42,666 nucleotides of DNA from Bacillota bacterium (lineage in GTDB: Bacteria; Bacillota; Sulfobacillia; DUSP01; JBFMCS01), in the NCBI GenBank assembly GCA_040754315.1, contig JBFMCS010000015.1, positions 1,823 through 44,488 on the forward strand, in the 5' to 3' direction. Below are positions 28,906 through 42,448 of this stretch, piece by piece. A program made the position numbers and the translations under genes. Position 1 is the first letter of the stretch. Each line of letters begins with the position of its first letter. A model generated the notes under the pieces. That model was not told the origin of the DNA. It ran no database searches and saw only the letters and a program-made list of their open reading frames with translations.

Positions 28906-28980
28906 GCTGGCGTAGCTCAACGGCAGAGCAGCTGATTTGTAATCAGCAGGTTATGGGTTCAAGTCCCTTCGCCAGCTCCA
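28906..28980 (+). tRNA. tRNA-Thr (anticodon TGT), integration target
   Basis: A 75-base cloverleaf with acceptor GCTGGCG/CGCCAGC, discriminator T and encoded CCA (28978-28980). The anticodon stem GCTGA/TCAGC encloses TTTGTAA, so the anticodon is TGT (codon ACA). Its 3' part from 28936 is repeated at 39497-39541, the other end of the integrated element; the tRNA remains complete on this side. Confidence 0.95.
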
Positions 28981-28984
28981 GCAT
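28936..28984 (+). repeat. attL core, 49 bp
   Basis: Identical to 39497-39545. It runs from the anticodon loop of tRNA-Thr (TTTGTAATCAGC) through CCA plus GCAT. Bases just outside differ between the two copies, which fixes the core limits. Confidence 0.93.
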
Positions 28985-29000
28985 AAACCGCAAATCAAGA

Positions 29001-29024
29001 AGGGGTCTCCATCGCGAGACCCCT
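29001..29024 (-). terminator. Hairpin, probable terminator for leftward element transcripts
   Basis: A 9-bp stem AGGGGTCTC (29001-29009) with GAGACCCCT (29016-29024). On the minus strand the stem is followed by TCTTGATTT, a moderately T-rich tail. It would stop int-operon transcripts before they run against tRNA-Thr. Confidence 0.55.
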
Positions 29025-29029
29025 CAAAT

Positions 29030-29054
29030 GTGGCAACCGTGTGGCAACGCAGAG
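29030..29054 (+). repeat. Left pair of putative integrase arm-type sites
   Basis: Two direct copies of GTGGCAAC (29030-29037 and 29041-29048), 11 bases apart, followed by GCAGAG. The whole 25-base block recurs near the right end at 39351-39375 with two differences, in the same orientation. Confidence 0.7.
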
Positions 29055-29056
29055 TA

Positions 29057-29084
29057 GAAGGCCCCCCGCTATGAGAGGGCCTTC
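29057..29084 (+). terminator. Hairpin, possible rightward terminator
   Basis: Stem GAAGGCCC (29057-29064) with GGGCCTTC (29077-29084), a 12-base loop and TTTGCC then TTTCTTCTC on the plus strand. It may end plus-strand transcripts that enter from sigH or tRNA-Thr. The T tract is poor. Confidence 0.45.
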
Positions 29085-29120
29085 TTTGCCTGTTTCTTCT
29101 CAAACCCAGGCTCTTTCCTG

Positions 29121-29603
29121 TTAGTGATTTAGCCCATCATCTTCAGATGGTGGCGAAGCATTGGTAGTCTGCATGTCCGCCCTTTGCTGTTTTCGCCATG
29201 CTGAATACAGCCAGAATAATGCACCCCCCAGGGCTGCGTAGCCTGTGAAGGTGGCGAGGTTTCGCACTGTCCATGCTCTCTTAGGCCAAGCCTCGTATTC
29301 ATCAAGCTGCTTCAGCGCTTCCCATCCTTTGTCGGTGACCATCTCGACATCAAGCCGGCCTGACTCCAGCTCACTTCGAAACTGCAACACCGCCTCCAAT
29401 GGTGGTTCCCCTTGCCACGGCCGAGGTGCCGGTGCCTCGCGCCAAGCGGACACGGCCCAAGTCATCCCCGTCCATCGGTCAACCTTGAAATACATGGGAG
29501 CAGGAGCGGCCGGGACTGTGACGGCAGACCAACGAAACATTATGGCAAGGATTACTGCCAGACAACAGACTATAGGATACCACAGGCCCCCTCTCGCTTT
29601 CAT
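29121..29603 (-). CDS. Two-helix membrane protein of the element, function unknown
   Basis: A 160-residue protein. The ATG at 29603 has AAGGAGG upstream on the minus strand. Hydrophobic segments lie at about residues 8-26 and 115-135, enclosing about 90 residues that include YFKVDRWTGMTW and a charged helix (LEAVLQFRSELESGRLD). The tail is polar and basic, then acidic. It is the last gene before attL, after int, a place where accessory genes often sit. I do not recognise a family. It might be cargo that protects the host or the element, but nothing in the sequence shows that. Confidence 0.75.
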   Translation of the reverse strand: MKARGGLWYPIVCCLAVILAIMFRWSAVTVPAAPAPMYFKVDRWTGMTWAVSAWREAPAPRPWQGEPPLEAVLQFRSELESGRLDVEMVTDKGWEALKQLDEYEAWPKRAWTVRNLATFTGYAALGGALFWLYSAWRKQQRADMQTTNASPPSEDDGLNH

Positions 29604-29652
29604 CCCTGTTTGCCTCCTTGATGGTCAACCTTCATTCTCGGTCGCTCTTCCT

Positions 29653-30828
29653 TCAAGGACCCTCCTTCAAGCCTTGAAGGGCGGCGTTCATCTTCTCCAT
29701 GGCCTGAGTTTTAAGATCCATGCCCACGTGGGTGTAGGTATCCAAGGTGATTGAGATGGTGCTATGGCCAAGGATCTCCTGAACCGTTTTGGGAGACTGG
29801 CCAAGCTCCAGCATCAGGGTAGCGAAGGTGTGCCTCAAGTCGTGAAACCTGACATGGGGGAGACCTGCCTTCCTGAGACACCCGTCGAAGTGCCTGGCCA
29901 TGTTCCTGGGGTCAATGGGCGTGCCAATGGGCGTACAGAATACAAGGCCCTGGTCCCCGTAGGCCGCACCCACAAGAAGGCGTTCCTCGTTCTGGCGGAT
30001 CTTGTGTTTCTTTAAGGCCGCCAGGATGTTGGAGGGCATGGGGATTGTCCTCCTTGAACGGGCACTCTTGGGTTCCTGGAAGACAAGCCGGGTCTTCCTC
30101 TCGCCGTCCTCCTGGTCGTACACCCGGCAAAGCCCCCGTCTCACCGTGAGGGTGCCTGCCTTGAGGTCCAGGTCGTCCCAGCGAAGGGCCAGCAGCTCAC
30201 CTAAGCGCAGGCCTGTCCCCAATGCAAGGAGAAAGGCAGCGGAGAGCCTGTCCCCTTCAACCACTGAGAGGAACTGCCTCGCCTCCTCCTGGGAAAGCGG
30301 CCTGATCTCCTTCTTCTCCTCCTTGGGCCTGGTGGTGGCCTCGGTGACGTTCCTGGCCAGCAGGTTATTCCTGACAGCCTGCTTCAGGGCACCGTGAAGA
30401 ACCGCATGGATGTACCTGACTGTTCTAGAAGAGAGGCCCTCTGCCCGCTTCTCGTTGTACAGGCGTTGGACCATCTCGGGCCGCAGGGCCTTTAGGGGGA
30501 TGTGTCCGATTGCCGGCTTCAGGTGGACCCTGACAAGATACGCGTAGCTGTCCCACGTGGTGGGGCGAAGGTCTGGCCTCTTGTACTCATGGAGCCAGAT
30601 GTCAATCCACTCGCCAACGGTTGTCTTGGTGGGCGCTGTGAAATTGCCGGCCTGGAGATCGACCTGGGTCTTGGCCATCTTCTCCTGAACCTCTTTGCGG
30701 GTTTTGCCAGAGAAGCTGGCCCTCTTCAACTTGCCTGTTTCCGAGTCCCTGCCGGTAGTGAGACGGCCTGCCCATGACCCGTTGGGCCGCCGGTAGATAC
30801 TGCCTTCGCCGTTACTCCTCTTCCCCAT
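29653..30828 (-). CDS. int: Tyrosine recombinase integrase
   Basis: A 391-residue phage-type integrase. It has an N-terminal arm-binding domain (GSIYRRPNGSWAGRL), a core-binding domain (about 68-160, with TVGEWIDIWLHEY) and a catalytic domain with Arg208 (GTGLRLGELLALRW), Lys254 (QEPKSARSRR), His329-x-x-Arg332 (HDLRHTFATLM), His355 (LGHSTISIT) and nucleophile Tyr365 (DTYTHV). All catalytic residues are present, so the element may still move. It overlaps the excisionase-like gene by 17 bases and faces attL in tRNA-Thr. Confidence 0.96.
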   Translation of the reverse strand: MGKRSNGEGSIYRRPNGSWAGRLTTGRDSETGKLKRASFSGKTRKEVQEKMAKTQVDLQAGNFTAPTKTTVGEWIDIWLHEYKRPDLRPTTWDSYAYLVRVHLKPAIGHIPLKALRPEMVQRLYNEKRAEGLSSRTVRYIHAVLHGALKQAVRNNLLARNVTEATTRPKEEKKEIRPLSQEEARQFLSVVEGDRLSAAFLLALGTGLRLGELLALRWDDLDLKAGTLTVRRGLCRVYDQEDGERKTRLVFQEPKSARSRRTIPMPSNILAALKKHKIRQNEERLLVGAAYGDQGLVFCTPIGTPIDPRNMARHFDGCLRKAGLPHVRFHDLRHTFATLMLELGQSPKTVQEILGHSTISITLDTYTHVGMDLKTQAMEKMNAALQGLKEGP

Positions 30829-31012
30829 GTCCGGGGCCCCCTCTCTCTCGCTTCCTCAGGAAAGCCTCCACATCACTTGGCCGGAAACGCCAGGCATAAT
30901 CCAGTTTGATGCCCTTGATCTTTCCATCGGCCAGGTAACGCCTCAAGTGTCTCTCCGACAGGCGCAGGTATCGTGCCACTTCTTTGAGTGTCATCAACTG
31001 CTGGTCCTTCAT
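30812..31012 (-). CDS. Excisionase-like MerR/HTH_17 DNA-binding protein
   Basis: A 66-residue protein with the helix-turn-helix LTLKEV-type opening (MTLKEVARYLRLSERHLRRY) and the wing GIKLDYAWRFRPSDVEAFL typical of excisionases and AlpA. The ATG at 31012 is chosen because AAGGAG lies 9 bases upstream; a GTG at 31030 is also in frame. It overlaps int, so the two are surely co-translated. It probably sets the direction of recombination. Confidence 0.85.
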   Translation of the reverse strand: MKDQQLMTLKEVARYLRLSERHLRRYLADGKIKGIKLDYAWRFRPSDVEAFLRKRERGGPGHGEEE

Positions 31013-31097
31013 GCCGTTCCGCTCCTTCACTGTGTGCTATAATGAAAGGGCAGGGCAAGCCCTATGGGTCTTGCTCGGTACTGGAGGGCGCTTCTCC

Positions 31098-31571
31098 TTA
31101 GCTGGCGGAGGCGTCCTCCTCCTCGTCTTCGAATCGCACACCAGGCATAAGCCTCCTGAGGTCTTCCTTGATCCGAGCTATGTAGTGGGAAGGCTCCTCC
31201 ATATCCTCCAGGGCGAATTGTCCCAGCACCTTGTCCAATGCCGGTCCTGTCTGAATAAGCGTCTCTCCCCGGTCCACGCAAAATTCTCCCTTGGCCATCA
31301 GCTCGGCCAGCTCCATCCCGTCAATTAGGCCTTGTAGGTAGAAGGCCTCGCTCTCCTTGACCGCAAGAGCAGCGTATGTGTTATCCAGATTGAGAACGAC
31401 CCGGTACCCGTCAGCATTGAGCGCCCCCTTCAAGAGATGGCCCAGTTCAACGCATTTCCCCTTTTCCTCCTGGTATTCGGGATCGGTTGCCTCCAGGCGG
31501 TCCAGTGCCACCCCCGTACGCTCAACATAGAGCCTCTCAGCCAGCTTCTTCGCGGCATCAGTCTTAGCCAT
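31098..31571 (-). CDS. Helical protein of unknown function at the head of the xis-int unit
   Basis: A 157-residue, mostly helical, acidic protein with a strong start: ATG at 31571, AAAGGAG upstream, and a promoter at 31619-31647. Its middle (KESEAFYLQGLIDGMELAEL) loosely resembles the small helical proteins with an F-x-x-G-x-x-x-G helix found in clostridial mobile elements (DUF6809-like), but the match is weak. The tail is EDEEEDASAS. Being first in the xis-int unit, it might regulate excision. No DNA-binding motif is visible. Confidence 0.75.
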   Translation of the reverse strand: MAKTDAAKKLAERLYVERTGVALDRLEATDPEYQEEKGKCVELGHLLKGALNADGYRVVLNLDNTYAALAVKESEAFYLQGLIDGMELAELMAKGEFCVDRGETLIQTGPALDKVLGQFALEDMEEPSHYIARIKEDLRRLMPGVRFEDEEEDASAS

Positions 31572-31618
31572 TCCAATTGACTCCTTTCATGTGGTATGGG
31601 CTGCCCTGCCCTACCCAT

Positions 31619-31652
31619 ATTATACCACGGCTTGCAAGGACATGCAAGGACA
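31619..31652 (-). promoter_or_regulatory. Promoter of the xis-int unit with tandem 10-bp repeat
   Basis: On the minus strand TTGCAT (31642-31647), 17-base spacer, TATAAT (31619-31624). The -35 region lies in two exact tandem copies of TGCAAGGACA (plus strand, 31633-31642 and 31643-31652), which could be a binding site for a regulator. Confidence 0.72.
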
Positions 31653-32234
31653 CCATATGTTGTATTGTGCCAAGAAAGCTTGTCAGAAGCCAGCCCCGTT
31701 GTCGCACCGTTGCCACCGGCCCCCAAAACAGGCCATCTAGCAGGAACATCCCGTGGGTGAAGTGATATGTAGTCATGAGGTTAAGGCTCCCGGAGGAGGG
31801 GAAGGGCGCGCCCTGAGGCGCAAGAACCTGTCCGGCGCTGAGGTTGTGGGGGCACTTAAAGGAGCCTCGCCAGCAGGTACTTTTCAATGGCGCCCCCTTC
31901 TAGAGCCCTGGAGGGGCATTCCTCCCGGGGCCATGTTAGGGTATTCACTGCCCCCACGGACCCCTTCAGAGCGACCGAAGAGTGGTGTCTCCCGGAGCTT
32001 AGCGGCCATCTCCTGAGAGGGGGTATCGCCTGGCGGCTACGCCCACTCCTCGGTGGCGGGGCCATCATGCCGCGGCGCCGGTGGCCGCCCCGGTTCGACG
32101 TGGGCAGCCCGGCCCCCCCGGGGGGCCTTGGAAAGAACCCCCCCTCACGCATGCGCCTAAGGTTTTTCTTAGCGGCTCCCGGAAAAATTCCGCAGGAGAA
32201 TCGCGGCAACTCGTTGAACCCCACGATGGTTGGT
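31653..32234. other. Non-coding 0.58-kb gap with clustered short hairpins
   Basis: No reading frame here looks like a protein on either strand: the open frames are arginine-, proline- and glycine-rich, lack start signals and conserved motifs. Short palindromes cluster here: GGGCGCGCCC near 31804, a GGCC-rich C/G hairpin near 32111-32127, CTAAG-GTTTTT-CTTAG near 32157-32172 and CGGAAAAATTCCG at 32180-32192. A GTTGCCAC (reverse of the arm-type site) is at 31709-31716. It may be a decayed gene, a structured RNA or a DNA site such as a packaging signal. Confidence 0.5.
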
Positions 32235-32525
32235 CTATGCAGGCCACCGGTCTCCCGCCGCCACCGGGGGATGCAGGAACCGCGCCAAGCCCGGCTCCTC
32301 GGCGATCTCTTCAGCCTGGATTTCGGCTGGCATCTCATGGAAGTGGAATCTTATCACTCCCACGAACGGGTCACGCTCCCGCGCCTCGGCCAGCAGGCGT
32401 TCGGAACGCCGGGTAAGCTTCGCGCCGCCACCCTCGACTCCCGCGTAGACCAGGACAAGCAGCGCCTCGCTGTCATCCGGGCTGAACTTGTCCTCAAGCC
32501 AACGTATACGGCCCTTAAGTACCAC
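32235..32525 (-). CDS. Small phage-like protein, coupled to the upstream gene
   Basis: A 96-residue protein starting at GTG one base after the stop of the gene at 32527, so the two are translationally coupled. The opening VLKGRIRWLEDKF is a short amphipathic helix seen at the start of many small phage proteins of unknown role. The middle LLVLVYAGVEGG is a beta strand, and IRFHFHEMPAEIQAEEIAEE follows. I do not recognise a family. In some prophages a pair like this precedes terminase, but here no terminase follows. Confidence 0.6.
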   Translation of the reverse strand: MVLKGRIRWLEDKFSPDDSEALLVLVYAGVEGGGAKLTRRSERLLAEARERDPFVGVIRFHFHEMPAEIQAEEIAEEPGLARFLHPPVAAGDRWPA

Positions 32526-32526
32526 T

Positions 32527-32859
32527 TCAACTCACCCCCCGCATGACGGCGGCCTTGACCTGCTTCTCCAGGGCCTCCACCCGGCCCTCAAGATCTGCAA
32601 CCTCCACGGCCCGCAAAGCCGTAGAAGCAACATAAGCGAGACACCGGGCCCTCTGGAGCGCATCGGCGTCAGAGGCCTGCACATCATAGATGGCCTGGCG
32701 AAGCAAATCCAGCACATCCTCGGCGGTTTTCAATCGAATTGAGTTTGGAAAACGGCTGGTGACGCTGGCCTTTCCATCCTTTGAACCCACTTGAACCTTC
32801 TTTTGCCGCGCCCACTCACGGGCATATTCACGGTGTTTTGCCTTGTCCTTGTAGGGCAT
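32527..32859 (-). CDS. Small phage-like protein with basic N-terminus and coiled coil
   Basis: About 110 residues from the ATG at 32859 (MPYKDKAKHREYAREWARQK), with GTGAGGTGG upstream; an in-frame start at 32874 is also possible. The basic first 20 residues are a common opening of small phage and HNH-associated proteins. The rest is helical (AEDVLDLLRQAIYDVQASDA) and ends in a short coiled coil (LEGRVEALEKQV). The overall plan resembles small-terminase-like or DNA-binding phage proteins. No defined family is claimed. Confidence 0.65.
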   Translation of the reverse strand: MPYKDKAKHREYAREWARQKKVQVGSKDGKASVTSRFPNSIRLKTAEDVLDLLRQAIYDVQASDADALQRARCLAYVASTALRAVEVADLEGRVEALEKQVKAAVMRGVS

Positions 32860-32910
32860 ACTCCACCACCTCACAGTTTTTCGATAGACACTGGGCTTAT
32901 GTCCTCTGGA

Positions 32911-33510
32911 CTAGCCAATGGCCTTCAGCACCTTCTTGAGAAGGGCCACCGCCTGGGGATGTTTTCGCAGTTCCTCCAGGTCAAGCACAGTGGCCTTCTT
33001 GCGCTTAAGGTCCCCGCTCGCATGGTCGTACCAGAGATGGCCAACCTGGAGTTTCCCGGCCTTCTCGAAGTAGGCCAGGTACACACGGCCCGTCCGGACC
33101 TCTTCACCGGCCTCCTGCTCCCAATAAGAAGGTTCTGAGTAAGGTTTCTGCCTTGCGGGTTCAGCCACGGCCTTAGCCTCCTTTTTCACTGTTGCCACCT
33201 GCTCCTTAGGGCGGGCCTTCCCCACGAACTCCTCTAGTAGCCTCCAGCACTCCTCGGACCCGGCGATCTCCTCAGCGTATAGGATTACCGGTTTGCCGCG
33301 CCGCTCTTCGTCAACCGCCGGCTCATACCAATAGGTATACATCCTCAGTGCTTTCTGTTCCCGGTAGAACTCCAGCCTAACCCTGCCTCTCAGCTCGACA
33401 ACCCGAGGCTTCTCCTCCAGGGCCGGGTCCCCCCCTGGCGCAAACTGATGCTGGTTGCCCACTCCCACAGGGTTTCTGACGTAAGAAACCGTCCTCAACA
33501 CACAACTCAC
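32911..33510 (-). CDS. Unknown protein with two copies of one domain
   Basis: A 199-residue protein with a GTG start; a stop in frame just upstream limits the start. Two segments, about residues 42-100 and 136-199, follow the same pattern: GRV-x-L-x-(F/Y)-(Y/F), then L near +13, a WY pair, a D/E-K/R-rich turn, V-(I/L)-x3-EE and LL-(E/K)-(E/K)-(F/V)-(V/L). The linker between them is rich in K, E and A. I know no family with this pattern. The gene lies between the Q-rich protein and the two small coupled genes. Confidence 0.72.
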   Translation of the reverse strand: MSCVLRTVSYVRNPVGVGNQHQFAPGGDPALEEKPRVVELRGRVRLEFYREQKALRMYTYWYEPAVDEERRGKPVILYAEEIAGSEECWRLLEEFVGKARPKEQVATVKKEAKAVAEPARQKPYSEPSYWEQEAGEEVRTGRVYLAYFEKAGKLQVGHLWYDHASGDLKRKKATVLDLEELRKHPQAVALLKKVLKAIG

Positions 33511-33577
33511 TACTGAACTGGGCTATGACGTTCTTCCTGTGCTTTTGAACTGCATCAGGCAACATTGCCAAGGCGCA

Positions 33578-35212
33578 TCACCTCATCCACGGTGCCAGCG
33601 GTTGTTGGCTCATGAGGCCATACTGGTTCCAGATCCCCGGCCAGTAGTTCGCCTGTTGCCCACCAAGAGGCGGCGTCCCTCCCCTTTGGGCTCCAAACCG
33701 GCCTTGGAGGTAGTCCACGTACTCCTGGATCACCTGGTTCAACGGGGCCTGTCCCGTGAGAACCCGGACATCCTCCTGGGCCATGGCTGTGGCATTCTGG
33801 TAAATGGAGGTCATGTCCACCGGCTGCGGCTGCATATACTGGCCCACCGCAAGCCGTTCGCCCTCGGTCAACTGGCTCATGGTGTACCCCTGCTGCAACT
33901 TCTGGTAGGCCTGGTTAGCCAACACCTGCTGCGGCGTAACCCGGCCCGCAAGGGCCACTTGCTGCTGCTGGAGGCCCAGCTGGGCCTGCCGGTAGTCCTG
34001 TTCCCACTGGGCTTGCTGCTGCGCCAAGCCGAACTGCTGGCTGAACTGCTGCTGCTGGGCGCCGAACCTTTGCTGTTCGAGCCCGAACTGCTGGCCGAAC
34101 TGTTGCTGCTGCATCCCCAGGCCCGCCGCCTGGAGGCCGTACTGCATGGCGCCCATCTCAGCCTGCTGCCTCATCTGGGCCTCGCCAAGTCCCGCCTGGA
34201 CCCCCAGGGTGCCAAACTGCTGTATGGCACTCAACCTCTGCTGGGCAAAGCCCATCATGGCGTTGAACATCTGGGTCTGGAGGCCCCTGAATTGCTCGGC
34301 GATTACCGCCTCTTCAGCGAGAAGGGCTCCCGTCCTGAACCGCTGCTCCACTTCCAAGGCTATGCCGGACTGGAGGAGGCCCCGGCGGTTGAGGTCTGCC
34401 TGGAGCCGTTCCCTCTCCACGCCGATGGATTCACGGAGCAGGGCCAGGGCATTCTGCGTTGCCGGGTCCATACCGCCCATGGCCTGCTGGAACATGGACA
34501 TCATCCGGGATTCGGCTTGGTCAAAAGCCGCCAGGGTCTGATCAAGATACTTCATCGCAAACATTTGGAGGCTCGGGGTCGTGGCTTGCGAGCTGATTTG
34601 TTGGGCTGCCTTAACGCCGCTCCAGATTGCCGCTTCATAGTCAAACGGCTGGCCCGCCGCGCCATCCTGGGCGCCGTACCGCATCTGTTCCTGCTGCCAT
34701 GCCTGGTCTATTATCGCCCTGCGCCCCGCCATGTCGTCCGTATAGCCTCCAGCTACCCCGGTTCCACCCGGCCCGGCCTTCGCAGGGCCACGCTCAAGAA
34801 GCGGGCTTGCCTCGCCTGTACCAACCCCGGCTCCAGCGCCGGGCGTTGATATGGGCTGCCCTGCGGGGGGTATGCCGTGGAGCATCTGGCGGAGGTCCCT
34901 CTCGATCTTTGCCCGGGGGTCTACCCCAGCCCAGCGATCTACCCCGGCCCCGGCCCCCTGCTTCACTCCGGTTGGGGATGGAGATGCCGGTGGTGTTGGC
35001 GTCGGCGTGGTCACAACGGGCGGGGGAGTCTTAATCAGGTTCTTCCCCGTAGGCGTTGACGGTATAGTCTCCGCCCGGCCTGTATATCCCGCAGGCCCAG
35101 GCCCCGACACCGCTTTCTGCTTGCGCTTCCACTCGGGCTCAACATCCATCCGGCCCCGGCTTGCCGCTTGCTGCTTCTGCCAACCCTGTAACCCCAGAAC
35201 ACCCATGGCCAT
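33578..35212 (-). CDS. Glutamine-rich helical protein, virion- or ejection-protein-like
   Basis: A 544-residue protein with AGAGGAG before its ATG. Residues about 1-115 are Pro/Thr/Gly-rich and disordered (TPTPTPPASPSPTG). Residues about 170-330 are helical (LQMFAMKYLDQTLAAFDQAE). About 335-430 is extremely Q-rich with a near-repeat (QQQQFGQQFGLEQQ and QQQQFSQQFGLAQQ), and the tail (about 440-544) is mixed and aromatic. This composition resembles internal virion, ejection or tail-associated proteins of podoviruses, though I cannot assign a family. It is the only structural-like gene in the element. It has no signal peptide or membrane helix. Confidence 0.75.
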   Translation of the reverse strand: MAMGVLGLQGWQKQQAASRGRMDVEPEWKRKQKAVSGPGPAGYTGRAETIPSTPTGKNLIKTPPPVVTTPTPTPPASPSPTGVKQGAGAGVDRWAGVDPRAKIERDLRQMLHGIPPAGQPISTPGAGAGVGTGEASPLLERGPAKAGPGGTGVAGGYTDDMAGRRAIIDQAWQQEQMRYGAQDGAAGQPFDYEAAIWSGVKAAQQISSQATTPSLQMFAMKYLDQTLAAFDQAESRMMSMFQQAMGGMDPATQNALALLRESIGVERERLQADLNRRGLLQSGIALEVEQRFRTGALLAEEAVIAEQFRGLQTQMFNAMMGFAQQRLSAIQQFGTLGVQAGLGEAQMRQQAEMGAMQYGLQAAGLGMQQQQFGQQFGLEQQRFGAQQQQFSQQFGLAQQQAQWEQDYRQAQLGLQQQQVALAGRVTPQQVLANQAYQKLQQGYTMSQLTEGERLAVGQYMQPQPVDMTSIYQNATAMAQEDVRVLTGQAPLNQVIQEYVDYLQGRFGAQRGGTPPLGGQQANYWPGIWNQYGLMSQQPLAPWMR

Positions 35213-35246
35213 TTCCCACCACTCCTCTCACCTTCGAAGAAAGACT

Positions 35247-35318
35247 TTACCCCCGGACCAGCAGCCCGCAAAGTAGACCCATGAAGCCGGCCAGCACAGC
35301 AATAGGCCGTATCCTCAC
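35247..35318 (-). CDS. Tiny single-helix membrane peptide
   Basis: A 23-residue frame starting at GTG, with GGGAGGTG about 8 to 10 bases upstream. It is basic at the start (MRIRP), then a hydrophobic run (IAVLAGFMGLLCGLLV), then RG and stop. It fills the 144-base gap between the nuclease and the Q-rich protein. It looks like a one-helix membrane peptide, perhaps holin-like or toxin-like, but such a short frame can occur by chance. Confidence 0.35.
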   Translation of the reverse strand: MRIRPIAVLAGFMGLLCGLLVRG

Positions 35319-35356
35319 CGGCGCATCACCTCCCAATCTTCGACGTGAACAGGTCT

Positions 35357-35905
35357 TTAACCACTGGCGCACTCCTTATGGGGATGCCGCAGGCCCTCCA
35401 GGGCGTGGCGGTAGAGATTCTCATGTATCCACCGCGCCGACAGGTCTGGGGCAAGGTAGATCACCGGGAAGCCATACCTGTGTGAGAAGGCCGTAAGGCT
35501 TGCCAGGAGTGCCTTTGGGTTATACTGGGAACGGTAGTCGCCGCGCACTATCTTGCCGAAACCGTCAGCATCCTCCACCAGGAGTGCGAAAAAGTCCAGC
35601 TGCCGGCCACGGATACATTCATTCTCGAACCGGGTCCTGTCCTTCAGGGTCTCCACCAGCTCATCAACGCTGCCCTTTCTCTCGATGGCCGCCGCGAAGT
35701 AGGTCTTGCGGAAAAACCCCAGCCCCGGGCATGCCGGGAGCATGATGGAGTAGTCCCCGGTTTCGAGGCTGCGCCGGTGGTGGGGTATCCCCTGGCCATC
35801 CAGCCAGGCAAGGATGTGGCCGTTCTCCTGCTCCCTGGTGTCATGGAGCACGGTTAGTGAGGAGGCCAGCTCCTCGCGCTCCTTATCGGTGAAGTGGTAA
35901 TGCAT
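35357..35905 (-). CDS. ERCC4-type (ERKxxxD) nuclease
   Basis: A 182-residue protein from the ATG at 35905, with GGAGGG 8 bases upstream; the frame is open further up, but that part overlaps the helicase gene and lacks sense. Motifs of the XPF/Mus81-like nuclease fold are all present: DTREQE (Asp22, Glu25), LETGDYSIM (Gly50-Asp51-Tyr52), AIERKGSVDEL (Glu75-Arg-Lys77, Asp81) and the helix RTRFENE. Such single-domain nucleases in phages and plasmids act on branched DNA during replication or recombination. It is 19 bases after the helicase gene and likely one operon with it. Confidence 0.88.
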   Translation of the reverse strand: MHYHFTDKEREELASSLTVLHDTREQENGHILAWLDGQGIPHHRRSLETGDYSIMLPACPGLGFFRKTYFAAAIERKGSVDELVETLKDRTRFENECIRGRQLDFFALLVEDADGFGKIVRGDYRSQYNPKALLASLTAFSHRYGFPVIYLAPDLSARWIHENLYRHALEGLRHPHKECASG

Positions 35906-35924
35906 CGGGGTTCCCTCCCCCCCC

Positions 35925-37820
35925 TCAGAAGAGCACATCAGCGTCGTCCGGGCACACCAGGTTACCAGAGGCCGGAACGGGGCCACGTGAATATCTGCCG
36001 GAAGTAGTTGGGATCCTACCTCCCAGAAACGGCCCAACCGTCCCAACGTCCTCCTCGGGGGGTTCTTCCTCCACGCTGTCCTCCGGCCAGGAATCATCGA
36101 TCTCGTCATTAGAATAAAGGTGTTTTCTTTGGTCCCGTTGGGTCCGTTGGGTCCGAAACCCGCCTACCTGCGGCTTTGTCGGGACCATGTCCGGACCCAT
36201 CCCATTTTCTTCCAGGCCTTTAGGTCCGCCTTTAGTCCCGCCCTCTTCCCTGCTAATGCCCAGCGTAGGTGGCCCGTCTTCCTCGTCCGGACCCATCGGA
36301 CCTATCGGACCCAAAGAAAATGACTCTATTCTAATTAGCCGCCTTCTAGACGCCGGCTCGCGTTCACCAAAGACTACCTCCACCCCCGCCTGCCTTAGAC
36401 AGGAAGCCGCACGCCTTAGCCGATTCGCCATTTGCCGCGGCCCATTGGGCCAATGTTTTGTCTTCCGCATTTTCTCAGGAACATACCCCTCCAGGACTTC
36501 CAGTAACTCGGTAGCCGTCCCGGCCCACTCAGACCGCATCTCCATCATCTCCCGCACTGCGCTTGCTACCGTATCGGCCTCGAAGATGCTCTCCACTGCG
36601 CCTGCCCGGTTGTCACTGTAAGCGGCCAGGAAGGCACCCTTTGGCCAAGGAAGCGTCCCCTCCGCAGCGGTGACCCATTCGGCGAAGTCTGCCATGCGGG
36701 GTAACGCGGGCAGATTCACGCCGGGCAATTCCCGTAGGGCCACGCAAACAGCCTCCAGGAGCGCCCCCAGGATACGCGGACTGGCCTTTTTGAAGTCATT
36801 CCATAAGTCTGCTTCGGGCTTGCGCTCCTCCTTCGCTATGGGCGGCAGGTGCAGAATGATGGAACGGTCCATGAGGTCGCCGCGGGTAATTATGTCTTCG
36901 ATGCCGTTCGCTATGACGGGCCGCTGTGCATCGAAAAGGATCTCGTCGGCATCACTGTACAGCTCCCGGGTTCCAAAGCCACCCCCTGTGGCCAGCCTGC
37001 AAAGGGCGTCGGACAGCCAAAATCTTAACCCACTTAGGTTGTCGAAGGCCAACGCCCAGTTATTCGTGGCCGCGATCATCAGGTCCCGCTCCTCCCTGGG
37101 GGGGGTCCGAACGTTCACCGCCGCCGGGTCCAACAGGCATTTCAGTATGCGGGCCACCGTGGACTTCCCGCTTCCCTGTTCGCCCTGGAGGACCAGGACG
37201 GGGTAGGGGCCAGTAGGCCTCAAGGCCGCTACCAGCCATGACACCAGCAGGAGCCAGTCCCGGTCCTGTTCCAAATTCACGAAGCCCCGGAGATCGTTCA
37301 CCGAACCCCCCCCGACAGGAACTGGCAGGGGCAGCATCCCCCGTGGCCGGCGGAAGTACACGGGCGGGCTTTCAGATATGCGCCAGCCCGTAGCGGTAAC
37401 TTCAATCACCTGCCAAGCGGCATTGGCCAAATCCAGATATATGGTGCCGTCCTGTTCGGCCAAGCGGGTATAGACTTCTTCTTGTTTACCTGCCACCTCC
37501 GCTCGGGCTTCGATGAGGCCAAGTGCATCCTGCAGGGCTTGCCCTCCGGGGGGCTTGTCGTGGGCATCGGCGAACCTTCGTATCAGCCAACGCCTAAATG
37601 TCTTGCCCCTTAGAGGCCAGACTTCGCGGTGGCCGCCCACGGGCATAGCGGCGAACACCTCTCCCTTGGGGGTGCAAATGAACCCCACGCCCTCGGCCAA
37701 CCTGATCAGGATCTGGGCCTGGTTCAGCTTCTCTTCTTCATTAGTGACAGGGGCACACTCCTCCAGGCCCACTTCCAGTAGGGCCTTCTCTTCGGCGGTC
37801 AGCAACTTACTTACTACCAA
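35925..37820 (-). CDS. SF3/D5-like replicative helicase of the element
   Basis: About 631 residues. The TTG at 37820 is favoured since GGAGG is 8 bases upstream; a GTG at 37829 touches that site. The N-terminal ~190 residues have no known fold. The ATPase core begins SWLVAALRPTGPYPVLVLQG and has Walker A GEQGSGKST at about 213-221, Walker B-like ALAFDNLSGL, and sensor-like RPVIANGIEDI and DRSIILHLPPI. This is the phage/plasmid P4-D5 primase-helicase group. A helical region to about residue 480 follows. The last ~120 residues are low-complexity (GPIGPMGP, TQRTQRDQRK, acidic stretches). The DNA for that tail contains the iteron inverted repeat at 36108-36335. The start overlaps the CHC2 gene by 7 bases. 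Confidence 0.85.
   Translation of the reverse strand: MVVSKLLTAEEKALLEVGLEECAPVTNEEEKLNQAQILIRLAEGVGFICTPKGEVFAAMPVGGHREVWPLRGKTFRRWLIRRFADAHDKPPGGQALQDALGLIEARAEVAGKQEEVYTRLAEQDGTIYLDLANAAWQVIEVTATGWRISESPPVYFRRPRGMLPLPVPVGGGSVNDLRGFVNLEQDRDWLLLVSWLVAALRPTGPYPVLVLQGEQGSGKSTVARILKCLLDPAAVNVRTPPREERDLMIAATNNWALAFDNLSGLRFWLSDALCRLATGGGFGTRELYSDADEILFDAQRPVIANGIEDIITRGDLMDRSIILHLPPIAKEERKPEADLWNDFKKASPRILGALLEAVCVALRELPGVNLPALPRMADFAEWVTAAEGTLPWPKGAFLAAYSDNRAGAVESIFEADTVASAVREMMEMRSEWAGTATELLEVLEGYVPEKMRKTKHWPNGPRQMANRLRRAASCLRQAGVEVVFGEREPASRRRLIRIESFSLGPIGPMGPDEEDGPPTLGISREEGGTKGGPKGLEENGMGPDMVPTKPQVGGFRTQRTQRDQRKHLYSNDEIDDSWPEDSVEEEPPEEDVGTVGPFLGGRIPTTSGRYSRGPVPASGNLVCPDDADVLF
36108..36335. 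repeat. 48-bp inverted repeat with 9-bp iterons inside the helicase gene: candidate replication origin
   Basis: The left arm 36108-36155 and the reverse complement of 36288-36335 match at 39 of 48 positions. Each arm starts with ATTAGAATA, passes through TTTTCTTTGG and ends in three 9-bp iterons of the type TTGGGTCCG. Between the arms, near 36203-36228, a third partial copy (CATTTTCTT...TAGGTCCG) occurs. AT-rich plus iteron structure inside a replication gene recalls the lambda ori in gene O and satellite-phage origins. Confidence 0.65.
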
Positions 37821-38380
37821 GGCAACCACCTCCGGGAAAGCCGCCAGCCATGAACCTGTTCCTCGGGGTCGCGGGAGGACAAGAGGTCCAAGACATGCTC
37901 GATGAAACCCACATCGGCAACAAGACCTGGGACTTCTTTCATGTTGTGCGGACGTATTCGGTGGAGTGCCCGAAAGAGAAGGCAGAGGTCCTGGTAGACA
38001 GCGTTCGCCTTGTCCTTGAAAGCCCGCGCCAATTGCTGTTCCTCCAGGACCGCCGGGTTAGGCCGGTGTCGGGTCCTCCCGGAGGACCGCAAGAGGCCGA
38101 AGTCCACGCCTATCCGCTTGGCCGCCTCCAGGGAAGAGATGCCCAGGAGAGTCGAAACGAAGTCCACGGCATCTCCGTGGGCCTGACACCCAAAACAATG
38201 AAAGCGCTTGTCCTCGAACACCACGAAGGAAGGCGCTTGTTCAGGGTGGAAAGGGCAAACGCCAGACCACCGAGAACCGCGCCTCCGAAGGCCCAGAGTG
38301 GGTGCATAGAAGGAGATCACGTCATGGAGTCCAACTTGCTTGACCGCCTCAAATATGGTAATCTGGCATTGAGGAAGCAA
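37814..38380 (-). CDS. CHC2 zinc-finger protein (DnaG N-terminal domain only)
   Basis: A 188-residue protein starting at TTG, with GGGAGA just upstream. The CHC2 zinc ribbon of DnaG-type primases is clear: Cys42, His45, Cys62 and Cys65 in VCPFHPEQAPSF and FHCFGCQAHGD, followed by the usual AVDFVSTLLGISSLEAAKRI. The TOPRIM catalytic core of DnaG is absent. The C-terminal ~90 residues are helical and unlike DnaG. It likely recognises DNA for priming together with the helicase encoded next, whose gene overlaps its end. Confidence 0.88.
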   Translation of the reverse strand: MLPQCQITIFEAVKQVGLHDVISFYAPTLGLRRRGSRWSGVCPFHPEQAPSFVVFEDKRFHCFGCQAHGDAVDFVSTLLGISSLEAAKRIGVDFGLLRSSGRTRHRPNPAVLEEQQLARAFKDKANAVYQDLCLLFRALHRIRPHNMKEVPGLVADVGFIEHVLDLLSSRDPEEQVHGWRLSRRWLPW

Positions 38381-38419
38381 TATCTCCCGCCCCCCTAGCC
38401 CGGCGTGCAGACCGGGCTG

Positions 38420-38626
38420 CTACTTTAAAACCCGTTTTTCGGCTTCGGCCTCAATCCAGCGTTCAAGCCCTACTGTTGGAACCCTGAGAGCACGGCCAAG
38501 GCAAAGCACAGGAGGGCCATCCTTCCGGTGTGCCAAAGCGTAGGCATGATTCCGGGAAATGCGAAGGATTTTGGCCATCTCCGGTATTGTGAGCAAGAGC
38601 CCCCTGGTGTCGCGCTGCTCCATCAT
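38420..38626 (-). CDS. AlpA/excisionase-like helix-turn-helix protein
   Basis: A 68-residue protein with GGGGAG upstream of its first ATG. The helix-turn-helix is LTIPEMAKILRISRNHAYAL and the wing ends GRALRVPTVGLERWIEAE, the HTH_17/AlpA pattern. It is a second protein of this type besides the one next to int. In P4-like satellites AlpA-type proteins activate the integrase or replication genes. It begins 6 bases after the Xre gene stop. Confidence 0.85.
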   Translation of the reverse strand: MMEQRDTRGLLLTIPEMAKILRISRNHAYALAHRKDGPPVLCLGRALRVPTVGLERWIEAEAEKRVLK

Positions 38627-38632
38627 CCCACA

Positions 38633-39232
38633 TTACTCCCCGCTGGGTTCCTTGAAGCACTCGGTGAAACGCGCCCGGATCTCCTCGAGCTTGTGCTCCC
38701 GACTTTCTTTGATCTGCTTTCTAAGATGAACAATCGCTTGCTTTGATAGGGCGTCTCTCTTCCTCTTTAATTCCTCGGGGGGCACCTCGTGGCCTGGAAC
38801 CCTCAAGAGCCGTGCCCACCTGAACACGACCCCGAGATTCTCCTTGATTCGGCGAACTGCCCACTCCAGCCTGGGATGAGCCTTCTCATCGCCGCCGGCA
38901 GCCTCCAGCGCCGCGTGAAGGGCACCCAACGCAGGGGAATATTCCGCGTGGAAGAGTTCGAAGGCCCAATCCTCCGGGTCGTAGGCGGCAACATCCACTA
39001 GGATGTCAATCCACATCGCTAGTACCCTGAACTCCTCGTGGTTCCTCATCAGCGCGTCAGGTTCGATGCCGAAAATGGCCCCGAGCTTTTGGGCCGACTT
39101 CCCGCTCAGTTTCTGTTGCCCCCGTTCTAGCTGAGATAGGAAAGGTTGGCTTATGCCCACCCGTTGGGCCAGATCCTGCTGGGTCAGCCCCCGAGTTTTC
39201 CGCAGTTGCGCCAGATCAATCACGGCCGACAC
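38633..39232 (-). CDS. Xre-family regulator of the element
   Basis: A 199-residue protein. The N-terminal helix-turn-helix (about residues 5-58) is LRKTRGLTQQDLAQRVGISQ followed by PFLSQLERGQQKLSGKSAQKL. The remaining ~140 residues are helical and charged, with no protease (LexA-type) or toxin motif visible. As first gene of the leftward operon with palindromic sites in its promoter, it is probably the repressor that keeps the element quiet. There is no divergent gene beside it, unlike typical phage immunity regions. Confidence 0.88.
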   Translation of the reverse strand: MSAVIDLAQLRKTRGLTQQDLAQRVGISQPFLSQLERGQQKLSGKSAQKLGAIFGIEPDALMRNHEEFRVLAMWIDILVDVAAYDPEDWAFELFHAEYSPALGALHAALEAAGGDEKAHPRLEWAVRRIKENLGVVFRWARLLRVPGHEVPPEELKRKRDALSKQAIVHLRKQIKESREHKLEEIRARFTECFKEPSGE

Positions 39233-39266
39233 CTCCCAAGCCCTTATAACGAACCCTCTAATGAGA

Positions 39267-39294
39267 ATTATAACTTATAATGTTTGCATGTCAA
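39267..39294 (-). promoter_or_regulatory. Promoter and palindromic operator of the Xre-led operon
   Basis: On the minus strand TTGACA (39289-39294), 16-base spacer, TATAAT (39267-39272). A perfect palindrome ATTATAA-C-TTATAAT (39267-39281) covers the -10, and a further half-site TTATAAC lies at 39244-39250. This fits self-repression by the Xre protein. Confidence 0.78.
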
Positions 39295-39350
39295 GCGTCG
39301 TACAACCAAATTCCCCTCTTGAATTTCATGTTCCTCTGCGCCCCGGTTTG

Positions 39351-39375
39351 GTGGCAACCCGGTGGCAACGCAGAG
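39351..39375 (+). repeat. Right pair of putative integrase arm-type sites
   Basis: GTGGCAAC at 39351-39358 and 39362-39369, 11 bases apart, then GCAGAG. The block repeats 29030-29054 with two differences, same orientation, 122 bases inside the attR core. Confidence 0.7.
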
Positions 39376-39496
39376 GGGAGAACATTATACGGAGAGTGAT
39401 TGAGTGTGATGAGCCCGCCCAAGAAGGACCTGCCCAACCCAACGGAGAATTGCCCCAAGGGAGAGGGTGGGACGAGACGGGATGGCTATGTTGAGT

Positions 39497-39545
39497 TTTG
39501 TAATCAGCAGGTTATGGGTTCAAGTCCCTTCGCCAGCTCCAGCAT
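39497..39545 (+). repeat. attR core, 49 bp
   Basis: Identical to 28936-28984: the 3' half of tRNA-Thr from the anticodon loop to CCA plus GCAT. The 5' half of the tRNA is absent here, so this is the element-generated copy. Confidence 0.93.
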
Positions 39546-39695
39546 CAAAGTTTAACTCTTCTTTTCTAATTTGATGTTGCTATGCGAGAGAAGGCACTAG
39601 TCTGATTATCAAAGATTATCACCATTAGCCTTGTCGACGCACAGAGAGAGTGCGCGCCGTTACTACAGGATTTACCTGGATTGAGGAGGTCTATT

Positions 39696-40544
39696 TTGGC
39701 TGATTCATGCGTGAATGAGATGGTGCATTACGAGACCGTTCGAGGCGATTACTTCGAATTTGCCAAAGAGATACCCAATAATTCAATCGACCTAATACTC
39801 ACAGACCCTCCATATAATCTTAGTCAATACTCCACAGGTAACATGCATTTTCAATGGCGCAAGACCATAAACAATGACTTGGCAGGATGGGACCAAGTAG
39901 CATTCAACCCCGCCAACTTGCTTGATGAGTTTATGCGCATATTGAAACCTACTGGCAACATATTTGCGTTCTGCACCTACAATCTTATTGGAAAATGGCA
40001 TGAGGCATTCGATCCCAAGTTTGACACGTTTCAGTACATGGTATGGCATAAGACTAACCCTGCTCCTAAAGTCCGGCGTGCCGGTTTCCTAAACAGTTGC
40101 GAGCTGATTGTGTGTATGTGGAACAAAGGTCACACATGGAATTTCACCAGGCAAGGCGAGATGCACAATTTCGTGGAAACACCTATATGCATGGGCAAGG
40201 AAAGATTGAAGAAACCAACACACCCCACGCAGAAGCCCGTGAAAGTCCTGAAGAAGATAATAGAGATTGCGTCTAATCCTGGCGATCTTGTCTTTGATCC
40301 ATTCATGGGCGTAGGTTCAACGGGAGTTGCTGCTTTAGAGTTGGGCCGTAGGTTTCTTGGTATTGAGATAGACCAGGAGTACTTCGATGCGGCTGAGGAG
40401 CGGATTAGGCAGGTTGTGGAGATGCAGCGGTTACATCTATGTGTGAACAGAGCCCAGACACCTCCAGCATCATCAACGGTTGTACTCAAGAAACCCAGAC
40501 AGAAGAGCAAAGACCCCGAGCCAGAACAGGTAAGGATGTCTTAG
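39696..40544 (+). CDS. DNA adenine methyltransferase, beta class (DPPY)
   Basis: A 282-residue protein. The TTG at 39696 is chosen since GAGGAGG (39683-39689) lies 6 bases upstream. Motif IV is LTDPPYNL near the N-terminus and the AdoMet motif DPFMGVGSTG lies near the C-terminus, the beta-class order of N6-adenine or N4-cytosine methylases. The region between would carry target recognition. It lies outside the attR core and is visibly more AT-rich than its neighbours, suggesting separate acquisition. No restriction endonuclease is seen, though one could lie beyond the window. Two copies of GATTATCA (39604-39611, 39614-39621) upstream might be a regulatory site. Confidence 0.88.
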   Translation: MADSCVNEMVHYETVRGDYFEFAKEIPNNSIDLILTDPPYNLSQYSTGNMHFQWRKTINNDLAGWDQVAFNPANLLDEFMRILKPTGNIFAFCTYNLIGKWHEAFDPKFDTFQYMVWHKTNPAPKVRRAGFLNSCELIVCMWNKGHTWNFTRQGEMHNFVETPICMGKERLKKPTHPTQKPVKVLKKIIEIASNPGDLVFDPFMGVGSTGVAALELGRRFLGIEIDQEYFDAAEERIRQVVEMQRLHLCVNRAQTPPASSTVVLKKPRQKSKDPEPEQVRMS

Positions 40545-40685: not shown

Positions 40686-41123
40686 GTGAGCGCCCTGGAA
40701 GACCTATCTGAAATCGAAAGACTGACCCATCACAGAGACCATCTTAAAGCCGAAATCGCCAAGATTGGCGACATGCGTCCCGGTTCACTTATTCCCCGCT
40801 TTCGCAAGTGCGGGAAACCGACCTGCCACTGTGCAAGGGAGGGATCGACAGGACATGGGCCAAGCTGGTCGTTGACCAGGGAAGTAAAGGGTAAGACAGT
40901 CACTAAGATCATTCCCTCAGATGCTGCCGTGGAGACCACAAAACAACAGTTATCGGAGTTTAAGCGATTTCGTAAGTTGAGCCGTGAACTCATAGAAGTC
41001 AGCGATAAACTATGTGATACCAAACTTGCGGAAGCCAAGGCCGAAGCGGGGGCAACGGCCAAAAAGGGGGCATCGAAAACGAGATCGAAGCTGAGGTCAC
41101 CAGGGAACTCAACACCCTCTTGA
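40686..41123 (+). CDS. First reading frame of the ISKra4-type element (DUF6788-like)
   Basis: A 145-residue protein. Its core MRPGSLIPRFRKCGKPTCHC is the small zinc-binding-like motif of the DUF6788 proteins found just upstream of ISKra4 transposases, followed by a long basic helix (TTKQQLSEFKRFRKLSRELI). The start is unsure: GTG at 40686 lies in the AGGAGG itself, while the CTG at 40695 is 8 bases from it. Its last ~18 residues, after the heptamer at 41063, are probably bypassed in the fused product. Confidence 0.82.
   Translation: MSALEDLSEIERLTHHRDHLKAEIAKIGDMRPGSLIPRFRKCGKPTCHCAREGSTGHGPSWSLTREVKGKTVTKIIPSDAAVETTKQQLSEFKRFRKLSRELIEVSDKLCDTKLAEAKAEAGATAKKGASKTRSKLRSPGNSTPS
41063..41069 (+). 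other. Putative -1 programmed frameshift heptamer A AAG GGG
   Basis: In the first frame the codons read A-AAG-GGG, an exact X-XXY-YYZ heptamer. The second frame (-1) is open from just after a TGA at 41015-41017, with no good start codon before the TTG at 41120, so slippage within this window would give a fused protein of about 587 residues. Confidence 0.6.
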
Positions 41124-42448
41124 GTCCGGCCATCGCTAGCGGGCTCGACCTGGAAAACCTAGAGACTGAGGCGAGGAGAATTGCTCTCCGCACCGCCGCT
41201 AGATTCCTGGAAGATAAACTTAACAACGATCATTCAGACCATGCAGGGGAGAGGATACCCTGCATTTTTTGTGGTCAGGATGCCCGCCACATTGAGCGGC
41301 GGCCCAAGACCTTCACTACCACTTTGGGCGACATCATCCTCGCCCGTTCCTACTACTACTGCCCCGCCTGCGGTAACGGTTGGTGCCCGAGAGATTGGGC
41401 ACTGGGCTTCAGTGATTCTTCATTGTCACCGGGGGTGACCCGCATGATCGCCCTGGTAGCGTCGGCAGGCTCTTTCCTGGAGGGCTCCAGACTCCTGGCC
41501 GAATTGGCCGGGATCTTCGTTGGCGCCAAGCAGGTTGAACGCACAGCCAAAAAACTCGGCGTCACCATTGCCGCCGATGAGGTGGCCGTCGTCGAGGAAA
41601 AACCGAACCCGAGCGATATCATGTACGCCGGGGTGGACGGAACCGGTATCCCTATGCGCCCGAACGAGGTGGCCGACAGACCCGGCAAGCAGGCCGACGG
41701 GTCATCGAAGACCAGGGAGGTCAAGCAGTGCGTTGTCTGGACCGCCGATGATCGGGACGACGAGGACAATCCGGTGCGCGACCCGGGATCGGTGAGCTAT
41801 TCAGCCGCCATAGAAAGCTGCGCCTGGGATAACACCTGCAAAAACACCCCGCCTTTCGCCCTTCGGGTCGAACGGGAATTGAAGAGGCGCGGTTTCTTCC
41901 TCGCCCGGCGCCAGGTCTTCATCGGCGACGGGGCCCCATGGATCTGGAACCTCGCTTCCATGATCGTCCCGGAGGCCATCCAGATCGTCGACTTGTACCA
42001 CGCCAAGGAGCACCTCAGCCAACTCGCCAGCAGCATCTTCGGTGTCGACACCGACCTGGCCAGGAAGTGGGCGGCTGATCGCCATCATGAACTGGAGTCT
42101 GGGAACCTCGATGCCCTCTTACAGGCAATCCACTGTCAGAATACACACGATGGAGACATCGGTTCCATGGCCTCAAGGGAGTTCGAGTACTTCAGCAATA
42201 ACCGCCAACGGATGCGATATGACTACTTTCGATCCCTCGGCCTCTGCGTGGGTTCCGGCGTGGTGGAATCCGGCTGCAAGGTGGTCATCACCCAGCGCCT
42301 CAAAAGATCGGGCATGTTCTGGAGCCTGAAGGGAGCCAACGCCATAATCGCCCTGCGCTGTAGCCTGTTCAGCAATACATTCGATGATTTCTGGGCCCGC
42401 TTCAGGGCCAACAACTACATGGGCACTCGCAAAGCTCTTCTATCATAA
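41120..42448 (+). CDS. ISKra4-family DDE transposase
   Basis: 442 residues if started at the TTG 41120 that overlaps the stop of the first frame; probably longer by fusion. An N-terminal zinc region has CIFCG and CPACGNGWCPRD. The catalytic acids fit the family: Asp173 in YAGVDGTGIPM, Asp270 in FIGDGAPWIWNL and Glu383 in VVESGCKVVITQRLK. The C-terminal part ends ALRCSLFSNTFDDFWARFRA. The gene is intact and probably active. Confidence 0.93.
   Translation: MSPAIASGLDLENLETEARRIALRTAARFLEDKLNNDHSDHAGERIPCIFCGQDARHIERRPKTFTTTLGDIILARSYYYCPACGNGWCPRDWALGFSDSSLSPGVTRMIALVASAGSFLEGSRLLAELAGIFVGAKQVERTAKKLGVTIAADEVAVVEEKPNPSDIMYAGVDGTGIPMRPNEVADRPGKQADGSSKTREVKQCVVWTADDRDDEDNPVRDPGSVSYSAAIESCAWDNTCKNTPPFALRVERELKRRGFFLARRQVFIGDGAPWIWNLASMIVPEAIQIVDLYHAKEHLSQLASSIFGVDTDLARKWAADRHHELESGNLDALLQAIHCQNTHDGDIGSMASREFEYFSNNRQRMRYDYFRSLGLCVGSGVVESGCKVVITQRLKRSGMFWSLKGANAIIALRCSLFSNTFDDFWARFRANNYMGTRKALLS

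Follow-up and report, generated by a model that had tools for sequence, protein, structure and literature searches.

Replication origins inside initiator genes are already known, as are iteron origins that lie beside self-loading helicases. The lambda origin, for example, lies in gene O. In pSK41/pT181, the origin likewise falls inside rep, and the part of the protein that this DNA encodes can be dispensed with (PMC5703833). Among helicases, SaPI Rep and Cch2 use a C-terminal domain to bind iterons located directly downstream of their own genes, probably as two hexamers (PMC7581432). According to PMC3583192, the iterons of pFP1 and pFP11 are bound by the Rep protein of the respective plasmid, and the propagation of pFP11 in linear mode is taken there as bidirectional replication. 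Propagation of pWTY27 in linear mode is interpreted in the same way, and its RepA both binds iterons and protects a long inverted repeat of GTTCCCAC-type units (PMC3583192).

Here, we describe an inverted array of short iterons in the 3′ coding region of a helicase gene from a Bacillota bacterium, found in a stretch of 42,666 nucleotides that we refer to as the window. The locus is similar to SaPI Rep and SCCmec Cch2 in the fold class of the helicase, its C-terminal winged-helix/DNA-binding domain, the short iterons that mark the 3′ end of the gene, and its residence on an integrative element. It differs from them in its 9-bp CGTC-type iterons, two inverted tandem arms, inner copies, outer boxes, and usually intragenic position. 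With lambda O and pSK41/pT181 it would share an origin within the coding sequence of the initiator; by position the repeats do lie inside the helicase ORF, where their own initiator would bind them. Those initiators are unrelated, non-helicase proteins, however, and the site here is in the C-terminal tail rather than central. The comparison with lambda gene O, drawn in the first-pass annotation of this DNA, thus holds for location and not otherwise, the closest working analogues being SaPI Rep and SCCmec Cch2. Unlike the window array, the iterons of pFP11, pFP12, and pWTY27 are intergenic and are not arranged as 9-bp tandem repeats.

Results

The helicase and its host element

The helicase gene resides on an integrative element of ~10.6 kb (window positions 28936-39545), which we recognize from the intact 49-bp direct repeats of the tRNA-Thr 3′ end that bound it and from the adjoining tyrosine integrase (Table 1). 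On its two sides the gene is flanked by an ORF for a DnaG-type zinc-finger protein and by an ERCC4 nuclease gene. No structural phage genes were recognized among the element proteins scanned, and a 544-aa Q-rich protein (33578-35212, − strand) has no PHROG match. To the right of the element, we observe an apparent DNA methyltransferase with a DPPY motif (39681-40544, + strand) and a 442-aa ORF resembling a transposase (41120-42448, + strand).

Table 1. Features of the helicase gene, its iteron array, and the surrounding element, in window coordinates
Feature	Position	Strand	Basis or detail
Left attachment repeat, 3′ part of tRNA-Thr	28936..28984	.	49-bp direct repeat; tRNA prediction
Tyrosine integrase of the element, beside the left repeat	29653..30828	-	Pfam PF00589
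Initiator-type hexameric helicase gene, 634 aa, GTG start	35925..37829	-	ORF, structural model, and structure matches
Arm 2, inverted	36108..36155	+	outer box ATTAGAATA 36108-36116, AT-rich spacer, three iterons 36129-36155
Inner iteron GGTCCG	36192..36197	-	31 bp to the other inner iteron; 42 bp to arm 2
Inner iteron GGTCCG	36223..36228	+	within the third partial copy of the first-pass annotation, 36203-36228
Arm 1, nearest the winged helix	36288..36335	-	outer box ATTAGAATA 36327-36335, AT-rich spacer, three 9-bp iterons 36288-36314
C-terminal winged-helix coding region, residues 434-503, proposed iteron reader	36321..36530	-	secondary structure of the model; partial Mantel against iteron sequence
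DnaG-type CHC2 zinc-finger protein, like a truncated primase, immediately upstream of the helicase	37814..38380	-	Pfam PF01807 4.5e-20
Right attachment repeat, copy of tRNA-Thr 3′ part	39497..39545	.	49-bp direct repeat

A Pfam scan gave no match for the helicase protein. Its AlphaFold (AF2) model, with a pLDDT of 82, comprises a helicase core, a winged helix at residues 434-503, and a disordered tail at residues 521-634. The best structural match to the model is the SaPI5 primase-helicase (7ola; Z of 20.9 over 375 residues). Further matches include poxvirus D5/E5 (Z ~18), AsfvPrimPol, and NrS-1, with SCCmec Cch (5dgk) also present in the Foldseek list. Across the structural alignment, the helicase and SaPI Rep share ~10% sequence identity. 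As modeled, the protein joins a D5/SaPI-like AAA+ core to a C-terminal winged helix, the combination seen in SaPI-Rep/Cch-type proteins, and the iterons are at the 3′ end of its gene, as they are at or directly beyond the gene end in that group. On the predicted structure, we therefore assign it as a D5/SaPI-Rep-like AAA+ hexameric helicase.

An inverted iteron array in the helicase tail

The array is built around two arms of 48 nt that are complementary at 39 of 48 positions (81%) and separated by a gap of 132 nt. In each arm, an AT-rich outer part (ATTAGAATA-A/G-AG...TTTTCTTT) is followed by three 9-bp units, which read TTGGTCCCG, TTGGGTCCG, and TTGGGTCCG in one arm and CGGACCCAT, CGGACCTAT, and CGGACCCAA in the other. 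In all of these respects, and in the positions of the arms, the first-pass annotation was accurate. It had also placed them in the tail of the element's own helicase gene, and they do lie in the C-terminal coding part, where the protein is predicted to be disordered. As a description of the whole, however, two arms fall short, the array being larger, with inner iterons and an outer box. The third partial copy reported between the arms is present but is not the sole one, being one of at least two inner iterons of the GGTCCG variant that characterizes the window, and a half-site GGTCC lies between the arms at 36182 (− strand). The inverted-repeat score of the window tail is 25.5, compared with maxima of 13.0 among codon-order shuffles (n = 300) and 20.5 among synonymous-codon shuffles (n = 300).

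The array in homologous helicases

Four full-length relatives of the same class, at 52-58% identity, each carry an inverted 9-bp repeat array whose repeat sequence differs. A single-protein query of genome contigs and viral contigs returned no matches; a query with an alignment succeeded, yielding loci from many phyla, 55 of them on viral contigs and 80 in genomes. Among cultured phages, members of the helicase family are almost absent, with Zeta1847 the only one. With an array called where at least four copies form a 9-bp tandem repeat on both strands, we find one in 112 of 143 homologue tails, versus 5 of 143 codon-shuffled tails and 12 helicase-core segments. Homologues do not lack the arms: at ≥50% identity, 62 of 64 have tandem iterons of 9 bp that occur on both strands and closely follow the winged helix. 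Consistent values come from two simpler measures, an exact 7-mer repeated at a lag of 9 (116 of 144 homologue tails versus 7 after codon shuffling) and the best inverted repeat (median score 14.5 in the tails versus 9.0 in the adjacent helicase core).

The array falls within the ORF in 89 of 110 loci. Array copies occur after the stop codon in four loci (L146, L047, L051, and L055), and the stop codon lies inside the array in two more (L030 and L041). In L025 and L114, the stop codon is found just before the array and the tail continues in frame, so that these look like nonsense or error cases; both were left out of the evidence for non-coding arrays. The tail of one homologue (L151, 4001-5923) has two successive arrays, the second of which is very similar to the tail of L129, a locus of the same bin, as though the helicase gene had captured it through recombination. 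Repeated arrays are apparent in L156 as well.

Several homologues are encoded on plasmids. On the Streptomyces plasmids pFP11, pFP12, and pSTS2 and on an S. alfalfae plasmid, GCGTCCC/CGTCCCC iterons are present on both strands downstream of the helicase gene and outside its ORF; in pFP11, the GCGTCCC iterons lie on both strands ~0.5 kb past the gene. The window thus shares with pFP11-type repA/iteron replicons a homologous Rep gene beside CGTC-core iterons. Given this adjacency to the iterons, the RepA described for pFP11 may be the helicase homologue CDS. The pWTY27 repeat GTTCCCAC, taken from its published description, resembles a CGTTCCC variant found in the helicase family. Streptomyces sp. 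F11 carries both pFP11 and pFP12 (L167 and L169), with diverged helicase homologues and iterons of GCGTCCCT versus CGTCCCCC, and so offers a natural test of specificity. The archaeal plasmid pH6Ac (L160) has CGCCTC copies on both strands within its primase-helicase gene. Upstream of that gene, at 943-1009, it also has a separate array of six exact tandem copies of the 11-bp TTCGAGCAAAG. In two Methylobacterium plasmids (L162 and L161), the helicase homologues have short tails and a repeat scan shows no obvious array; the origin of these plasmids may differ. In pH6Ac, pFP11, and the S. alfalfae plasmid, strand-biased genes dominate the cumulative GC skew, which proved uninformative.

Conserved boxes in the two arms

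Oriented on their common core, the iterons share the form CGTC(C/A)(G/C)C plus two loosely conserved bases. The exact CGTC core is found in 87 of 110 loci, compared with ~8% estimated by chance when the freedom of register and strand is taken into account. Iteron bases 5-6 vary by lineage (CG, AC, CC, AG, CA, AT, GC, and others) and are uniform within a locus, although this uniformity is partly built in, as the detector takes the best repeated 6-mer of each locus (the controls use the same detector). In the 70 loci with two clean arms, arm 1 and arm 2 each contain 2-3 units, and the median outer distance is 173 bp. Both arms display an outer box ~19 bp outside the first unit, pyrimidine-rich and then (A/G)GA(A/T), and they further share a G-run at −10 to −8 and an A/T at −2. 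Short sequence boxes conserved in this way are as expected for protein binding. The 31- and 42-bp spacings of the inner iterons in the window recur in homologues, whose recurrent inner spacings of 31 and 41-42 bp would lie near whole helical turns.

These boxes bear on the possibility that a long stem-loop, in RNA or single-stranded DNA, is the functional feature, for instance as an mRNA control element or an origin of the pRN1 type. The window strand does fold far better than its shuffles, with z of −7.8 as RNA and −6.6 as DNA. Plasmid pRN1 requires a stem-loop 3′ of its helicase/winged-helix Rep (PMC4234260), and this Rep, ORF904, resembles our helicase in its domains and in acting 3′ of its own gene; the authors of the pWTY27 study also suggest that RepA may recognize a folded-back inverted repeat (PMC3583192). 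The pRN1 stem-loop is variable in sequence, however, whereas our loci conserve the sequence boxes but not the stem, and pairing is not maintained through sequence change. Across the 70 loci, spacer bases in and out of stem register score 0.56 versus 0.51 at position 8 and 0.32 versus 0.42 at position 9, and the arm flanks beyond the boxes match little above the between-locus background. The tandem 9-bp periodicity and the inner copies would be superfluous for a stem, and in pFP11-type plasmids an opposite-strand gene lies between the array and the helicase gene. Although the window itself folds well, we reject the hairpin as the feature selected across the family, as the spacers are not complementary between arms, and we consider a functional stem-loop unlikely.

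The helicase winged helix as the candidate reader

Iteron distance correlates with winged-helix distance when distances in the remainder of the protein, the ATPase core and the N-terminal part, are controlled for (partial r of 0.165, p of 0.002), a correlation that could partly reflect the adjacency of the winged-helix codons to the array. No correlation is seen with ATPase core distance (p of 0.35). Mutual information between iteron bases 5-6 and protein columns gives only a slight winged-helix excess, with wing residues 490-493 near the top. The neighbors of the window helicase rarely accompany the array elsewhere (the ERCC4 nuclease at 1 and the zinc-finger protein at 1 of 62 array loci), which makes the helicase its natural partner.

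In plasmids, iteron-like arrays also act as parS sites or operators. The iterons could accordingly be operators or a partition/centromere-like site rather than an origin, all the more as we infer the binding of the helicase here. Against this, inspection of the ORFs of the window element revealed no ParA or ParB. The array accompanies the helicase amid differing neighbors and usually lies within or immediately beyond the helicase gene, far from promoters, and its sequence tracks the helicase winged helix. An operator or partition role is, in our judgment, decidedly unlikely.

Selection on the DNA of the array

An alignment of homologues was predicted at first pass to show conserved arm DNA alongside a drifting protein tail, and this outcome was borne out. 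In 20 alphaproteobacterial homologues, pairwise identity at 4-fold third bases is 0.907 in the iteron columns versus 0.524 in the helicase core, and the maximum obtained by resampling the core is 0.686. Third-base identity was 0.900 when half of the sequences served to define the columns and the remaining half to test them. In the same homologues, amino-acid identity declines from 0.83 to 0.45 in the tail. This pattern of silent-site conservation indicates that selection acts on the DNA of the array. The converse idea, that GPxGPxGP-like peptides are selected in the tail and the DNA repeat is a by-product, would fit the LGPIGPMGP encoded by arm 1 and the similar tripeptide runs of homologues. 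Arm 2, however, encodes the unrelated RTQRTQRDQR in another frame, homologues encode VRN, SSP, VTT, DAD, and other runs, and the arrays persist past stop codons. We reject a protein-level explanation because of the silent-site conservation and regard it as very improbable.

A dispersed MITE, which the inverted arms with their AT-rich edge superficially resemble, or a chance inverted repeat has next to no likelihood: the 351-bp region and the tandem iteron each occur once in the 2.92-Mb genome, which holds none of the dispersed copies that the first-pass annotation had named as evidence against an origin, and the arms are nowhere else; none of the 300 shuffles reaches the observed score, and the position is conserved in homologues.

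Discussion

Taken together, the family-wide array, the constraint on its DNA, the link between iteron and winged helix, the predicted fold of a self-loading initiator helicase, and the plasmid homologues lead us to regard the array, with considerable confidence, as the site bound by the helicase that the element itself encodes and, very probably, as the origin from which the element replicates; binding, loading, and replication at the array are inferred. The origin proposed in the first-pass annotation for this single locus is supported by the DNA-level conservation, by the occurrence in homologues, and by the single genomic copy, and from sequence comparison it appears to widen to a family-wide array, usually in the 3′ coding tail.

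By analogy with the known systems, the most likely mechanism would be one in which the winged helix recognizes the two arms, two hexamers are loaded, and the AT-rich flanks are opened. After excision, the C-terminal winged helix of the helicase would read the iterons, and two hexamers would assemble on the two opposed arms. These would then open the flanks and travel away from each other, so that replication would be bidirectional, with primers supplied either by the host or by the primase-like zinc-finger protein of the element. The protein tail would be a disordered by-product that tolerates the DNA signal, and the lineage-variable iteron bases 5-6 would set specificity between co-resident elements.

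We see an even chance that these loci constitute a very widespread and apparently undescribed class of origin, in which one helicase family, distributed over bacterial integrative elements, viral contigs, plasmids, and one archaeal plasmid, carries inverted 9-bp iterons (outer GA box, CGTC core, and two-base specificity code) in the DNA that encodes the disordered tail of the helicase itself. With this geometry, two hexamers would be loaded head to head, and compatibility between co-resident elements would depend on the two-base code. Our search of the literature available without subscription found no description of the array.

If this reading is true, the origins of a large and mostly unstudied class of integrative elements and plasmids could be read from the 3′ end of the helicase gene in many phyla. 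Initiator-origin specificity and incompatibility would become testable through the link of the iteron dinucleotide to the winged helix, and the odd repetitive tails of many annotated helicases (VRNVRN...DADDADD, GPIGPMGP...) would be explained. The intragenic site would also keep initiator and origin together on horizontal transfer.
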